This document shows positions 8,268-22,310 of a DNA stretch of 25,849 nt, piece after piece. Origin of the DNA: a virus. The notes under the pieces were generated by a model. The model was given only the letters and a program-made list of their open reading frames with translations, was not told where the DNA came from and searched no databases. Numbering within the stretch: the first letter of the stretch is position 1; each line of letters begins with the position of its first letter. The position numbers and the translations under genes are program-made. The DNA lies in the IMG/VR virus record IMGVR_UViG_3300046821_000030, positions 1-25,849 of that record; one strand, given 5' to 3'.

Positions 8268-8678
8268 TCAAGCACCATTCATCAATTTCTGCCAGTCAAT
8301 ATAGTTCTTTATTGCGAAGGAAAGATCCTTAATACTGTCTAAAGATTTGCCAACATATATCAACTGAACTTCTATCGAGTTTAATGTTGTACAGATTGTG
8401 ATGTACTTTTTATCGGCATAAATTTGTGATTCTACTTCAGTCTTTGAATCCCATCTGTATTCTGATTCAAACTTGTAAAACTTGTAGAGTGTTCCATACA
8501 TCTCACGCTGCTTATCTTCGGAAGACTTTTTGGCGGCATGTAAAGTAGCCAGAAGCTTCAAAAGAGACTGATGAACCGCGGCATACTCCATTAATTTTGT
8601 GGAGATATTATTGGCGTCAAATGTAAGTTTCTTTTCCAAATAAGTCTGCAACTGTAGAAACTCTTCTTCACTAAGCAT
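8268..8678 (-). CDS. uvsY: Recombination mediator UvsY
   Basis: This 136-residue protein matches T4 UvsY (137 residues), which loads the UvsX recombinase onto gp32-coated single-stranded DNA. The C-terminal segment LDSIKDLSFAIKNYIDWQKL lines up with T4 LDAIKSRGFAIKHIQDMRAF. A central SADK-like YADKKYITI block precedes it, and the whole protein is helical. The ATG at 8678 has AAAGGA 12 bases upstream. Its partners UvsX, gp32 and UvsW are all encoded in this window. Upstream on the minus strand lies the TnpB locus, whose putative RNA end approaches the uvsY leader, so the insertion may affect uvsY expression. Confidence 0.85.
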   Translation of the reverse strand: MLSEEEFLQLQTYLEKKLTFDANNISTKLMEYAAVHQSLLKLLATLHAAKKSSEDKQREMYGTLYKFYKFESEYRWDSKTEVESQIYADKKYITICTTLNSIEVQLIYVGKSLDSIKDLSFAIKNYIDWQKLMNGA

Positions 8679-8689
8679 TTAATTATTAT

Positions 8690-8885
8690 CCTTTATGAGA
8701 CACGAAGTGGCTCTATCTGTATGTAATCATCGACTATAAAATTAGTCGTATAGGTTATACCTACTTATTTAACGCTTCATCGCTTGTGCAGTCATTATCC
8801 TTACAGATAATAACTGTCTTACTTATGCTCGGCGTTTGTTTTGGTGTAGTGATTCCTGCACCAGAGAGGGTTAAACCCTCAGATA
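8690..8885 (-). ncRNA. Putative omega-RNA (TnpB guide RNA scaffold) at the tnpB 3' end
   Basis: TnpB proteins use an RNA made from the 3' end of their gene and the element's right end. Five hairpins follow one another here on the minus strand: GAGGGTTTAACCCTC (8866-8880), GGTG/CACC around 8842-8863, an 11-bp stem at 8789-8816, CGACTA/TAGTCG (8731-8748), and GAG-CAC/GTG-CTC (8697-8713). In the 8789-8816 stem one position is U-G in minus-strand RNA but a C-A mismatch on the plus strand, which favours the minus RNA. Three hairpins lie inside the tnpB coding end and two in the gap before uvsY. If the scaffold ends near 8697, the guide would read the uvsY ribosome binding site and start. Function is inferred from family knowledge. 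Confidence 0.5.
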
Positions 8886-9957
8886 AAATATTCTTCGCTG
8901 CATTTACATCCCTGTCGTGTATAGCTCCGCAGGAACATGACCAGACTCTATGGTGTAACTGAAGATTTTTATTAATCTGACCACAGCAAGAACAAGTCTT
9001 GGACGAGGGAAAAAATCTTCCAACCTTGATAAAGTCTTTACCATACCACTTACTTTTATACTCCAACATACTTATAAATGTACTCCAGGACTGTTCCGAG
9101 ATCTTTTTAGAAAGTCTTCGATTTTTGAGCATTCCAGAGATGTTTAAAGACTCCACACAAATCTTGTCAAAGGCTGTCACCAATCTCTTGGACAGATTAT
9201 GCTGGAAGAACTGTCTTTGATTAGTGACCTTCTGATGTAGGCGAGCAATCCTCTTACGGTTCCTCTCATATCTTGAGGATCCCTTAGTTTTCTTGGCAAA
9301 TCTGCGTTGTTCTAATTTTAACTTAGCTTGGTTCTCACAAAAGTTAAAATTATGTTTAGTTCCATCTGATAGTGTCACGAAGTCCTTGACACCAAGATCT
9401 ATTCCAACTGCTCTCCCTGTCTTAGGAAGATGATTGACATTTTCTTCTACCGCTATGCTGACAAAATACTGTCCAGCAGGGTTTTTAGAAACTGTACAAG
9501 AAAGTAATCTTGAGGACTTAGGAATATGTCTGTCAATAACTATGTCTACAAGACCAATCTTTTCTAAACGAATCTTGGAGCACCGGATATCGAACTTTTT
9601 GTTAGGAAGTCTATAGGAATTGTGTTTAGATTTCTTTTTAAAAGAAGGTCTTCCTACTTTAGATTTCCTTTTGGTATTAAAGAATTGACTTTTAAACTCC
9701 TGAATATCTCTATCTTTTTGTTGTAAGGCTCCGGAAGATACTTCTGACAAAAAGGAATGGACTTTCTTAGGGTTATTATATTTAATATAAGGTGCCGCAG
9801 AAGTATTAAAAGACTCAACAAAGAGATTCCATATAAATCGGACACATCCAAATGTTTGATTAATCTTTAAGATCTGATCATTAGATGGAAAGATTCTATA
9901 TTTGTAAGACTTATTCTGGATCACGAAAGTATTTATCACAACAATTTTGAGGATCAT
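8761..9957 (-). CDS. tnpB: TnpB, RNA-guided nuclease of the IS200/IS605 family
   Basis: This 398-residue protein is a TnpB, the RNA-guided DNA nuclease family ancestral to Cas12. The N-terminal block YKYRIFPSNDQ followed by CVRFIWNLFVE is typical. The RuvC residues are present: Asp187 in GIDLGVKD, Glu269 in CVESLNISGM, and Asp348 or Asp350 in HDRDVNAAKNIL. The zinc-binding Cys are C322/C325 and C341/C343; the second pair is CxC rather than the usual CxxC. The length is normal, so it looks intact. The C-terminal LTLSGAGITTPKQ segment is encoded within the predicted RNA scaffold. The ATG at 9957 has no Shine-Dalgarno; a GTG at about residue 12, just before the conserved block, is an alternative. 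No TnpA is in the window. Confidence 0.93.
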   Translation of the reverse strand: MILKIVVINTFVIQNKSYKYRIFPSNDQILKINQTFGCVRFIWNLFVESFNTSAAPYIKYNNPKKVHSFLSEVSSGALQQKDRDIQEFKSQFFNTKRKSKVGRPSFKKKSKHNSYRLPNKKFDIRCSKIRLEKIGLVDIVIDRHIPKSSRLLSCTVSKNPAGQYFVSIAVEENVNHLPKTGRAVGIDLGVKDFVTLSDGTKHNFNFCENQAKLKLEQRRFAKKTKGSSRYERNRKRIARLHQKVTNQRQFFQHNLSKRLVTAFDKICVESLNISGMLKNRRLSKKISEQSWSTFISMLEYKSKWYGKDFIKVGRFFPSSKTCSCCGQINKNLQLHHRVWSCSCGAIHDRDVNAAKNILSEGLTLSGAGITTPKQTPSISKTVIICKDNDCTSDEALNK

Positions 9958-9958
9958 T

Positions 9959-10720
9959 TAGGGCACAGAGTGGACCGTACCTGACCGATAGATCTAGTTA
10001 TTCACAATGAGTTAAGGCGTAGCCTAGTGTGATCTGAACGCAGTGAGGATCACACATGATATGAGAATGTATTAGACTGTGCCTAGAACATCCAGAGGAC
10101 CAATGAAGAGTATTTACATTGGATTTAAAGAATCTTGACAAGACCCTTGTGGTCTTAGGGCGCAGCCCTAAGAATTGTCAATAATATGGAGTGGAGCGAC
10201 TAGACAGAGTGATTGTCTATCAGGATCAGATAGATTCTCTGATGGAGCTTCACGGGAGAATTATTTGTAAGAATTTCTCGAGGAGGAAGTCTGACTGAGG
10301 AAGAAGTATTTGTTTTGGATTTTCGCTTCGCTCAAGTCACTGCGTGACTGTTCGTTTATTTTTTATAAGAATTAACGACTAACATTAATTAACAGAGCTT
10401 CGCCTTTACCTATATTCATGGAGCTCGTTTTGAATCGAGACCCTCATTTGATTTATAACTGATTATCTCTTCAGTTCTTGTCAAATGATTGAATATAAGT
10501 CAGGGATCGGCACTAAGTTCATTACTTAGTCAACAGGAATATCCGATAGCCTTTACCTCTGAACCCCTCAACACTTGCCTTTGAGCTTGGGTGTTTTGCA
10601 TCTCTGCATCATTCCAACTCGGGGTTCCTCAACATACAGACAGATTTGTTCTTACTCTAATTCCCGAGCCTGTATGTTATATGTTCTTCACTTTATAGTC
10701 CTCACGAAACATCATGGACT
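9959..10720. ncRNA. Large structured non-coding region of unknown class, upstream of tnpB
   Basis: No credible gene is seen here, but the DNA is packed with stems. Examples are 9959-9968/10077-10085 (9 bp, one bulge, enclosing a domain), 10027-10034/10048-10055 (8 bp), 10135-10140/10176-10181 enclosing the strong hairpin 10154-10172, 10201-10219, 10225-10243, and 10445-10451/10481-10487 enclosing 10457-10462/10471-10476. Others are 10506-10510/10543-10547 enclosing 10512-10530, 10561-10567/10621-10627 (7 bp) enclosing smaller hairpins, 10631-10639/10670-10678 (9 bp), and 10697-10701/10716-10720. Wobble pairs favour the minus strand in some stems and plus in others, so the strand is open. Candidates are an IStron-type group I intron, a giant phage RNA such as GOLLD or ROOL, or a new class. 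No tRNA or clear group I/II core was found. Confidence 0.5.
10334..10366 (+). terminator. Terminator-like hairpin inside the structured region
   Basis: AGTCAC TGC GTGACT forms a 6-bp hairpin (10335-10349) followed on the plus strand by GTTCGTTTATTTTTT. This would suit termination of a rightward transcript covering the left part of the structured region. The spacing between stem and T-run is longer than ideal, and the hairpin may simply be one of the RNA's many stems. Confidence 0.3.
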
Positions 10721-10770
10721 TACTACTATTTATTTACTTACTCGATTTACTTTCTCTGTTTCTTACAAAC

Positions 10771-10779
10771 ATTATATCA
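10771..10779 (-). promoter_or_regulatory. Extended -10 promoter candidate reading into the structured region
   Basis: The minus strand reads TGATATAAT, an extended -10 element (TGnTATAAT), directly after the stop of the small basic gene. No good -35 is present, which extended -10 promoters can tolerate. It would start an RNA near 10764 running leftward into the structured region and tnpB. It overlaps the TTGAT noted as a possible insertion target. Confidence 0.4.
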
Positions 10780-10782
10780 ATT

Positions 10783-11058
10783 TTAATTTTCAGTATCTTC
10801 AGAAGATTTTTGACTTCTAAGAGACTCTTGGACTTTATTTACATCAATCTTTCCATTTTCAAACTTATATTTTTTAGGATTCGGTCTATAATCTGGTCCG
10901 ATGATTTTCTTCCATTTCTCTACACGCTGTGTATAAGTATTGGCTTTCATAACATCATACCCATGGAGCTTTTTCTTTCTCTTATCAGCTTCTTTTTCTG
11001 ATGTGAGTTCTTTGGCTCTCTTATCTTTATTGTGCTTATTCCAATTCATACGTTTCAT
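10783..11058 (-). CDS. Unknown small basic protein
   Basis: This 91-residue protein is very rich in Lys, Arg, Asn and Glu (for example HNKDKRAKELTSEKEADKRK) and has one more conserved-looking segment, YTQRVEKWKKIIGPDYRPNP. It has no cysteine, membrane segment or known motif; a nucleic-acid-binding or structural role is possible but unsupported. A GAGGATATT ribosome binding site precedes the ATG. It is the first gene of the leftward arm, next to the divergent promoter gap, and would be immediately upstream of uvsY if the TnpB block were absent. Confidence 0.55.
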   Translation of the reverse strand: MKRMNWNKHNKDKRAKELTSEKEADKRKKKLHGYDVMKANTYTQRVEKWKKIIGPDYRPNPKKYKFENGKIDVNKVQESLRSQKSSEDTEN

Positions 11059-11167: not shown

Positions 11168-12910
11168 ATGTACATAAAATTGATCAGCTTAAAGTTTAAG
11201 AACATCATGTCGTATGGAAACTACGTCACGGAGTTCAAGTTTGATGAAGGTCTATCTTTGATCTCAGCTAAGAATGGATGTGGAAAGACTACTATTCTCG
11301 AAGCACTATCATTCAACCTATTTGGTAAGCCTTACAGAAATATAAAAATCTCTGAGCTTATCAATAGAAAGAATAAGAAGAATCTCTACACAGAATCTCT
11401 ATTCCAAATTGACGGTAATAACTACACTGTTGTAAGAACTCTTGGACCAGCTAAACTTGAGATATACAAAGATGGTGTGATTCAAGAAAATCTTTCAGCA
11501 AAGAAGTTAGACCAAGAAGAAATCAATAAGCTTCTCGGAGTAGATTATAATATCTTCAAACTTATCATAGCCTTGTCTGTAAACTACAACAGACCTTTCC
11601 TATCATTAGGTGCTGGTGATAAAAGAGATGTTATGGAATCTATCTTCAATATCAAAGTATTTGGTGAGATGCTGTCCAAGTTGAAGAAAAGAATGTCTGC
11701 AGTTAAGAGTGAGAAGATGATCGTTGATGGATCTATCAAAACTCTTGAAGCATCCATTAAAGTACTTCATGGTCAAATCAAACAGATAGAACATAGTATG
11801 GACGACTTCGATTCTAAAAGAAATGCAGATAGTGATAGAGTAAAGAAGCTGCTTAAAGATGCAGATAAGAAACTAATATCACTTGAGAAATCTGCCAAAG
11901 AGTCTAAACAAAAGATGGAAGAGATAATAGTCGTTGATGTATCTGAAGAACTTTATGAGGTTCGTACAGAAATTTCAAAACTAGAATCTAAAGTTGCTGA
12001 ACTTAAAAAGCAACTGGCATTCTTTGATAAGCATGATGAGTGTCCTATGTGTGGTGTCGAAATGTCGGAAGATCATAAGAATAAGGAACTCTCAAAATTA
12101 AATAATGAGATTGATTCACTTCTACCTATGATTGATACGTTAAGAGCTACAAAGGCTCTCTATGACTCTCAAAACCGGCAGAACAATGATCTCATTCAAG
12201 ACAGAATGAATCACAGTAATCACATCTCAGAGTTAGTTTCCGAAGCCAAGACGGTTCTCAAAACAATCGAACTTTATAAGGCACAACTAACCGAGATAGA
12301 AACTAGAACATATTCATTGGACACCACAAGCATAAAAGATGAGTATGATACTCAGATTGCAGAGTATAAAAGAATAACTGCTCTGAGCGCCCAACTTCAA
12401 TCAGATATGATATTGAATGAGTACGCTGCCAAGATGTTAGATGATAATGGAATCAAGTCGTACTTCTTCAAGCGATTAATCCCTATTCTAAATAAGAAGA
12501 TAAATGAGTATCTGGAACTATTTGAACTTCCAGTTAAAATATCATTTAATGAGTTCATGGAAGAAAAGATCAGTATGCAATTGTCCAGTGATCTGGATAT
12601 ATCTTACATGAGCTTCTCTGAAGGCGAAAAGAAAAGAATAGATATTGCAATTCTTCTTTCCTTCATCGAGACTACAAAGATACTTTCAAATTGGAATTGC
12701 AATGTCATTATGTTTGACGAGGTACTTGATAACGCCACTGATTCGGAAGGACTTGATAAGTTGCTTTCATCCATAAAAGATTTGACTACAAGAGATTCCA
12801 AGCTTTGCTCATATATAATCTCACACAGAGATGCAGATTCTGATCTTTACGACAGAAAAGTTACAATAAAGAAAGTTGCTGGATTTTCCAAACTACAAGA
12901 GACCAAATGA
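11168..12910 (+). CDS. 46: Recombination nuclease subunit gp46 (Rad50/SbcC-like ATPase)
   Basis: This 580-residue protein is the ATPase subunit of the T4 gp46/gp47 complex, which resects DNA ends for recombination-dependent replication. The N-terminal Walker A is AKNGCGKTT (34-42), followed by long coiled-coil arms (about 165-285 and 300-400) around a zinc hook CPMC (Cys292, Cys295). The C-terminal ATPase half has the ABC signature FSEGEKKR and the Walker B segment NVIMFDEVLDN. Length is close to T4 gp46 (560). GAAGAAGGT precedes the ATG. The gene overlaps the gp55 start by ATGA, beginning an operon of overlapping genes that also contains the partner gp47. Confidence 0.95.
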   Translation: MYIKLISLKFKNIMSYGNYVTEFKFDEGLSLISAKNGCGKTTILEALSFNLFGKPYRNIKISELINRKNKKNLYTESLFQIDGNNYTVVRTLGPAKLEIYKDGVIQENLSAKKLDQEEINKLLGVDYNIFKLIIALSVNYNRPFLSLGAGDKRDVMESIFNIKVFGEMLSKLKKRMSAVKSEKMIVDGSIKTLEASIKVLHGQIKQIEHSMDDFDSKRNADSDRVKKLLKDADKKLISLEKSAKESKQKMEEIIVVDVSEELYEVRTEISKLESKVAELKKQLAFFDKHDECPMCGVEMSEDHKNKELSKLNNEIDSLLPMIDTLRATKALYDSQNRQNNDLIQDRMNHSNHISELVSEAKTVLKTIELYKAQLTEIETRTYSLDTTSIKDEYDTQIAEYKRITALSAQLQSDMILNEYAAKMLDDNGIKSYFFKRLIPILNKKINEYLELFELPVKISFNEFMEEKISMQLSSDLDISYMSFSEGEKKRIDIAILLSFIETTKILSNWNCNVIMFDEVLDNATDSEGLDKLLSSIKDLTTRDSKLCSYIISHRDADSDLYDRKVTIKKVAGFSKLQETK

Positions 12911-21389: not shown

Positions 21390-22310
21390 ATGCACTGTGT
21401 TTATAAAATAACTTTTATTGAAAGAGAAAGACAGAATATCTATCCATGTTACTACATTGGATCAAAAGGTAATGTGGATGTTCGTGATGGTGTGATGTAT
21501 AGAGTTGGTAGAAAGAAACCTTATTGGGGAAGCCCGTCAGATAAGTCTTATCCAGAAGCACTTAAAGAACCAAAGAAAATGGAAGTACTGAAATACTTTG
21601 AAGATTACACTGAATGTTTGTCATATGAACGTGCTGTTCATATTGAAAATGATGTGATAATAAATCCAAAATATTTTAATAAGAATTATGCTGTAGAAGG
21701 AACATATAGCCATCCAGATTACGGATCATTTAAACATAATGAAACTGGTAAGACTATTAGACTGCCATTAGATCACGCAATGGTTTTAAATGGAACTTAT
21801 GTTGGTTCTACTAAAGGTGTTCATCAAACAGAAAAGTGTAAAGAGAAGAAGAAACGATTTGGTAAAGATAATCATTTTTATGGAAAAGAGCATACTACAG
21901 AATCTAAGAAAAAAATTGTTGATGGTCAAAATGAATGGAAAACAAAGAATCCAGAAGCGTATGCTGAACATATAGAAAATGTTAGGGCTCATATGACCAG
22001 AGTCAGTCGAGGAGTTCCAAAATCAGAAGACCATAAGAATAAAATTGGCCGTAAAGGTATGGCGATGATTAAGAATATTGAGACTGGTGAAGTTAAAAGA
22101 TTGTATATGACTTCTGATGAGTATATTAATAGAGATAAGAAACTTTGGAAAACACCTTATCAAATTTCATGTGATAATGGTACTGTTCCAAAGGTAAAAT
22201 GTGATCATTGTGGGAATATGTTCAATAGTGCCATGCACACCAGATGGCATGGAGATAACTGTAAGATGAAGCCAAAAGATTCATCCAAGTTAATAGACAT
22301 AATAGAATAA
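21390..22310 (+). CDS. GIY-YIG homing endonuclease with NUMOD3 motifs and a zinc finger
   Basis: This 306-residue protein looks like a free-standing phage homing endonuclease. The N-terminus has the GIY-YIG layout: VYKITFI, CYYIGSKGN (20-28), then PYWGSPSDKSYPEA. The middle has NUMOD3-like DNA-binding repeats, HFYGKEHTTESKKKI and a second RGVPKSEDHKNKIGRKG. The C-terminus has a zinc finger of the form C-x2-C-x8-H-x3-H-x3-C (271-291) ending RWHGDNCK, common on phage homing enzymes. Such proteins cut a site in related genomes lacking the gene, so the gene spreads by recombination. It sits between uvsX and gp41, flanked by a terminator and a promoter. AAGG lies before the ATG; no clear promoter of its own was seen. 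Confidence 0.85.
   Translation: MHCVYKITFIERERQNIYPCYYIGSKGNVDVRDGVMYRVGRKKPYWGSPSDKSYPEALKEPKKMEVLKYFEDYTECLSYERAVHIENDVIINPKYFNKNYAVEGTYSHPDYGSFKHNETGKTIRLPLDHAMVLNGTYVGSTKGVHQTEKCKEKKKRFGKDNHFYGKEHTTESKKKIVDGQNEWKTKNPEAYAEHIENVRAHMTRVSRGVPKSEDHKNKIGRKGMAMIKNIETGEVKRLYMTSDEYINRDKKLWKTPYQISCDNGTVPKVKCDHCGNMFNSAMHTRWHGDNCKMKPKDSSKLIDIIE

Follow-up and report, generated by a model that had tools for sequence, protein, structure and literature searches.

A hairpin-rich, gene-free stretch at the uvsY–gp46 junction of a T4-like virus, a candidate cis-acting element

What occupies the DNA directly upstream of tnpB in this T4-like virus, where 825 nt (positions 9958-10782) carry no gene? The window, i.e., the whole 25.8-kb virus record that was analyzed, contains T4-type genes recognized by Pfam (UvsW, UvsY, gp46-like, portal), and its main genes run on the minus strand left of about 11.1 kb and on the plus strand right of it. 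The stretch lies to the minus-strand side of the switch, flanked by tnpB and a 91-aa ORF, and uvsY comes after tnpB. An earlier note had described it as gene-free, heavily structured and located directly upstream of tnpB, and had proposed a large non-coding RNA of unknown class; its account of the location agrees with the gene map given here.

Gene content and folding of the stretch

The features of the locus are as follows.

8268..8678, minus: UvsY (Pfam PF11056)
8679..8760, minus: 3' flank of tnpB, with a hairpin CAC-GAA-GTG at 8701-8709 on plus; we take it to be the right end / omega-RNA expected of a TnpB element, a role assigned from TnpB biology
8761..9957, minus: TnpB, IS605 OrfB family (Pfam PF01385, PF07282, PF12323)
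9958..10782, no strand: gene-free, hairpin-rich region, an enlarged uvsY–gp46 divergent intergenic region (stem counts, ORF and stop tests, positional counterparts in relatives)
9962..10083: domain directly upstream of tnpB, closed by the 7-bp stem 9962-9968/10077-10083, with an inner hairpin at 10027-10055
10015..10025, plus: C(GNA)G mini-hairpin AGGC-GTA-GCCT
10153..10173, plus: C(GNA)G mini-hairpin TCTTAGGGC-GCA-GCCCTAAGA, 9 bp
10323..10338, minus: 16-mer GACTTGAGCGAAGCGA with a GC-GAA-GC mini-hairpin, identical copy in the relatives L232-L236
10335..10349, minus (GNA strand): C(GNA)G mini-hairpin AGTCAC-GCA-GTGACT
10397..10403, minus: second GCGAAGC mini-hairpin motif
10444..10488: nested stems 10444-10451/10481-10488 and 10457-10462/10471-10476
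10561..10627: stem GAACCCC/GGGGTTC (computed) around two crossing complementarities (read from the sequence), a possible pseudoknot
10631..10678: 9-bp stem AACATACAG/CTGTATGTT
10776..10781, minus: TATAAT at the head of the region, directed toward tnpB and uvsY, with no good -35 box
10783..11058, minus: 91-aa ORF with no homologue in phages or relatives
11168..12910, plus: gp46-like (Rad50-type) gene, the first of the plus-strand block

Stop codons are about as frequent in the stretch as chance predicts (15-27 per frame against 17.9 expected), and no frame gives a Pfam match, so that the description as gene-free holds. The same two results make a missed frameshifted gene, the alternative that the earlier note itself had named, unlikely, and it was rejected.

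The claim of heavy structure was confirmed by counting perfect stems with loops of up to 40 nt against 200 dinucleotide shuffles. Stems of at least 5, 6, 7 and 8 bp number 31, 15, 6 and 4, against 16.4, 5.1, 1.5 and 0.4 in the shuffles; each of these counts is reached by at most 1 of the 200 shuffles, and the 15 stems of at least 6 bp (5.1 ± 2.3 expected) by none. Two individual claims could be located as well: the stem proposed for 9959-9968 with 10077-10085 exists, its perfect core being the 7-bp stem 9962-9968/10077-10083, and the nested pair consists of an 8-bp stem enclosing the inner one at 10457-10462/10471-10476. The excess consists of local hairpins, not of long-range stems. The motif GCGNAGC occurs four times in the region, and the hairpin at 10335..10349, read on the plus strand, resembles a weak terminator. 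An internal tandem repeat of about 98/197 nt is weak (3 of 300 shuffles). The minimum free energy of the stretch has z-scores of -3.7 (minus) and -3.1 (plus); since some genes of the same phage contain single 200-nt windows with similar z-scores, folding energy by itself is no proof of function.

Two minor observations concern the remainder of the window. Positions 8712-8724, in the 3' flank of tnpB, match 10632-10644 of the gene-free region at 12 of 13 positions in inverted orientation, maybe by chance. A 306-aa ORF between uvsX and gp41 (21390-22310) has no Pfam match, and its start resembles a GIY-YIG endonuclease by eye.

Comparison with known RNAs and TnpB elements

The proposed check against Rfam did not place the stretch in a known class. 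Nothing was found at the gathering score, and permissive filters up to E = 10 returned only chance-level matches to unrelated families; the known large non-coding RNAs (GOLLD, ROOL, OLE, HEARO) and group I/II introns were rejected because no covariance model matched. Neither tRNA genes nor a group I intron were found in the window. A blastn search of the stretch against phages, plasmids and the contigs of relatives gave chance-level matches only; when the entire region was aligned pairwise with that of relatives, nothing beyond the 16-mer was significant. Exact-pattern scans of viral contigs yielded apparent coding repeats for paired AGGTAAAGGC, none of them alignable past the pattern, and no match for CTTAGGGCGNAGCCCTAAG. 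The large-RNA interpretation is therefore partly supported at best: the stretch is indeed noncoding, structured beyond chance and matched by no Rfam class, but a new class of large non-coding RNA is not supported by tests of the kind that the note had proposed. The stretch itself has no homologue that can be aligned with it, and L232-L236 resemble one another too closely for compensatory changes to be judged; G-U pairs did not favor either strand.

The neighboring transposon gene suggests another comparison. In other phages, TnpBs that are 51-54% identical to that of the window have about 145 nt of common upstream sequence with a structured left end. Like a TnpB left end or an IStron, the stretch is structured noncoding DNA directly upstream of tnpB; unlike them, it lacks the roughly 145 nt of upstream sequence that close TnpB relatives share, the window has no group I intron, and C(GNA)G hairpins are also found in this gap in phages without TnpB there. 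Since the stretch shares neither upstream sequence nor a group I intron with related elements, its reading as part of a TnpB element of the kind seen in relatives was rejected. Some of the sequence at 9958-10090 may still be part of the TnpB element, and the first 120 nt or so beside tnpB (the domain 9962..10083) may, judged from architecture, be its left end. A general TnpB-associated 5' RNA was also rejected, as the sequence upstream of about 80 TnpB relatives shows no comparable feature; noncoding, hairpin-rich DNA upstream of tnpB is an unusual combination among these loci. In the related loci that were scanned, Rfam recognized no RNA immediately upstream of tnpB.

The uvsY–gp46 gap in relatives and its C(GNA)G hairpins

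Searches with gp46 identified a lineage of about 30 relatives with the divergent order uvsY(-)/gp46(+). Their uvsY–gp46 gaps, which measure about 250-400 nt in the compact members and far more in others, are the sole positional counterparts of the stretch, and they have hairpin type and position in common with it. Apart from the one 16-mer, no sequence can be aligned between them and the stretch. The gaps carry different inserts: TnpB in the window, where it sits between the stretch and uvsY and which is found in this gap in none of the lineage relatives examined, an HNH gene in L232-L236, and other ORFs in L115, L231, L243, L252, L254 and L266. In the gap of L241, GAGCGNAGCGA is present twice; repeated DNA in this gap upstream of gp46 (L241:1-400) also contains two long hairpins whose arms, AAACTTGTAAAACA and ATAATTGTAAAACA, resemble each other.

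The closest long counterpart is found in L232-L236, where about 925 gene-free nt are followed by the HNH protein; the layout is that of the window, with HNH replacing the 91-aa ORF and without TnpB. This stretch has weak structure, on one strand. It is 92-99% identical among the members, with conservation about equal to that of the neighboring genes (between L234 and L236, noncoding 97%, HNH 92%, gp46 80% and uvsY 100%). In the two members checked, a promoter stands at the head of the gap and reads toward uvsY, a perfect TTGACA-17-TATAAT (12/12) in L232 and TTGACA-17-TATGAT in L234. L232-L236 carry an identical copy of the 16-mer GACTTGAGCGAAGCGA, located on the same strand as in the window and at a similar offset from the head of the region (457 nt, vs 452 nt in the window). 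Exact matches to 1500 random pieces of the relatives were all shorter than this 16-mer (maximum 15), and its 13-nt core is absent from every other fetched locus.

A class of perfect hairpins recurs in the gaps, defined by the triloop C(GNA)G and built on unrelated stems; examples are TCCCGGTGC-GAA-GCACCGGGA in L005, AAAATAGATATCC-GTA-GGATATCTATTTT on the reverse strand of L117 and CAACAATCC-GCA-GGATTGTTG in L244. Perfect C(GNA)G hairpins with a stem of at least 4 bp were counted in 32 loci including the window: 22 fall in 16,488 nt of gap, none in 16,319 nt of other noncoding DNA, and 15 in 299,049 nt of coding DNA. The gap rate is 26-fold the coding rate, against 2-4 fold for the other commonest triloop classes, and the difference between the gap and other noncoding DNA is significant (Fisher P 3e-7). 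Because the motif was first spotted in the window, the relatives alone provide an independent test; 19 of the 22 gap hairpins remain without the window. In more than half of the loci, the gap is devoid of C(GNA)G hairpins with stems of at least 4 bp. In G004, a 200-kb relative, this gap is the most hairpin-dense of 30 gaps and contains the sole noncoding C(GNA)G hairpin of at least 6 bp. The 100 kb of G023 that were examined have their longest C(GNNA)G hairpin, with 9 bp, in the corresponding gap.

In 10 of 10 loci, it is the plus strand that carries the GNA of the hairpin nearest uvsY; where a locus has several hairpins, many of the distal ones have GNA on the minus strand. Several uvsY-proximal hairpins are 26-52 nt before the start codon, and most hairpins are not followed by a T-run. 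Between the hairpins and gp46, most relatives have a consensus sigma-70 promoter for gp46, so that an mRNA from this promoter would not contain the hairpins. Both strands fold alike in the window and in most relatives, whose gaps fold well (z about -3 to -9), a behavior expected of DNA palindromes. The conserved feature is hairpin type and position, not RNA sequence.

According to published work, GNA and GNNA loops closed by C-G are the rule by which DNA mini-hairpins become extraordinarily stable (PMC4686876). The gap hairpins agree with the d(GCGNAGC) mini-hairpins of Hirao, Yoshizawa and colleagues (PMC4686876) in the GNA loop closed by C-G, with any N, and in the occurrence of GNNA loops (L116, L244); they differ in setting, as the rule is known mainly as a physical property of oligonucleotides, and the literature searched yielded no case of such hairpins keeping their position at an operon junction of phages.

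A candidate cis-acting element and its alternatives

Rather than a known large RNA, the stretch is probably an element that acts in cis. Specifically, we give about an even chance to the interpretation that it is the enlarged uvsY(-)/gp46(+) divergent intergenic region of an uncultured T4-like lineage and acts as a cis element of that junction. Folding of both strands, perfect hairpins and loops that obey a DNA rule point, not conclusively, to action at the level of DNA, and the plus-strand GNA near uvsY together with the many minus-strand GNA distally fits an element organized around the junction. We hypothesize that when transcription or replication opens the divergent junction, one strand could extrude very stable mini-hairpins, which would then mark or organize the junction, at the place of T4 oriF (ori(uvsY)), or insulate the two transcription blocks from each other. 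The region is possibly also a long uvsY leader, since hairpins 26-52 nt from the start codon are as compatible with an mRNA leader as with DNA.

The T4 comparison concerns position. T4 oriE, oriF and oriG lie at switches of the transcribed strand, and no local sequence motif is common to all T4 origins (PMC3016281). The gap lies where a T4-type R-loop origin would be expected, beside uvsY and at a switch of transcription direction; it shares both features with oriF, but oriF has a middle promoter and an A+T-rich unwinding element of about 100 bp, and the review mentions no hairpins (PMC3016281). By analogy, the position of the gap is suggestive. In G004, the minimum of cumulative GC skew falls on the gap; it was rejected as support for an origin because gene orientation accounts for it, no skew shift independent of gene orientation having been found. 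A more specific proposal, that a cis element, perhaps a replication origin, is conserved as a C-GNA-G class and a position while its sequence turns over freely, and is recognized by hairpin shape, is offered tentatively, as a somewhat doubtful one.

The hairpins might instead be parts of a long untranslated leader, a minus-strand transcript that would begin at the head of the region (TATAAT at 10776) and continue across them into tnpB and uvsY, and whose stem-loops would control translation, stability or processing of the mRNA. We regard this as a minority possibility to be taken seriously: the promoters of L232 and L234 head their gaps toward uvsY, the TATAAT of the window (10781-10776) lies on the same strand as that of L232, and the L232-L236 gap is about as conserved as the adjoining genes. 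The hairpins of L242, L250 and L251 are 26-31 nt before uvsY, with no room for a promoter between, and hairpins so near the start would be in the uvsY leader if transcription begins upstream. However, both strands fold about equally in most relatives, many distal hairpins have the opposite orientation, the promoter of the window has no good -35 box, and the high identity of the L232-L236 gaps may come from recombination. A free-standing structured RNA of a new class, similar to GOLLD or ROOL, is very unlikely. The size (about 750 nt), the gene-free phage setting, structure beyond chance, the possible pseudoknot and the lack of an Rfam match all suit it, and size class, phage setting and elaborate predicted structure recall GOLLD and ROOL themselves (PMC12286853). 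The stretch differs from these RNAs in having no Rfam match, no nearby tRNA genes, no conserved sequence and no strand-specific structure. No homologue with shared sequence was found, structure is present on both strands, the window contains no tRNA genes, and L232-L236 keep the place but not strong structure.

Alternatively, the stretch could be a decaying insertion hot spot, made of a TnpB left end and the remnants of other insertions, in which the hairpins no longer serve a function. The different inserts in the gaps of different relatives and the structured left end of about 145 nt in TnpB relatives are in line with this, yet random remnants would not yield one loop class 26-fold over coding DNA in many phages, and they would not leave some 900 gene-free nt 92-99% identical among L232-L236. 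Compact gaps with hairpins and no insert (L117, L005) suggest that the hairpins are older than the insertions, and we consider the hot spot improbable. The cis region of a divergent operon junction, enlarged and invaded on one side by TnpB, is a better description of the stretch than a large non-coding RNA, its putative function being read from sequence comparison. Ordinary homology searches are blind here because a hairpin rule and a place are conserved and the sequence is not, and strong folding of a gap on both strands need not mean a large non-coding RNA. If the hairpins act in DNA, they would show the d(GCGNAGC) rule, so far studied mainly in oligonucleotides, being put to use in nature, at the junction that carries a well-studied origin in T4.

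Several observations concern TnpB loci in other phages. Three related copies on one 243-kb phage contig (L026, L028 and L038; IMGVR_UViG_3300042560_001323), 52-54% identical to the TnpB of the window, have a common left end of about 145 nt and a common right end, and thus form a multi-copy TnpB element in one phage genome. Group I introns recognized by Rfam lie near TnpB loci of two large phages (L024:6422-6673 and L028:1488-1724). In L023, L033, L034, L035 and L037, up to about 550 nt are conserved upstream of tnpB, mostly with an ORF reaching tnpB that is possibly tnpA. Finally, L231:1-1116 encodes a TnpB that is 55% identical to that of the window and lies on the other side of uvsY; the uvsY neighborhood may thus be a repeated target of TnpB.
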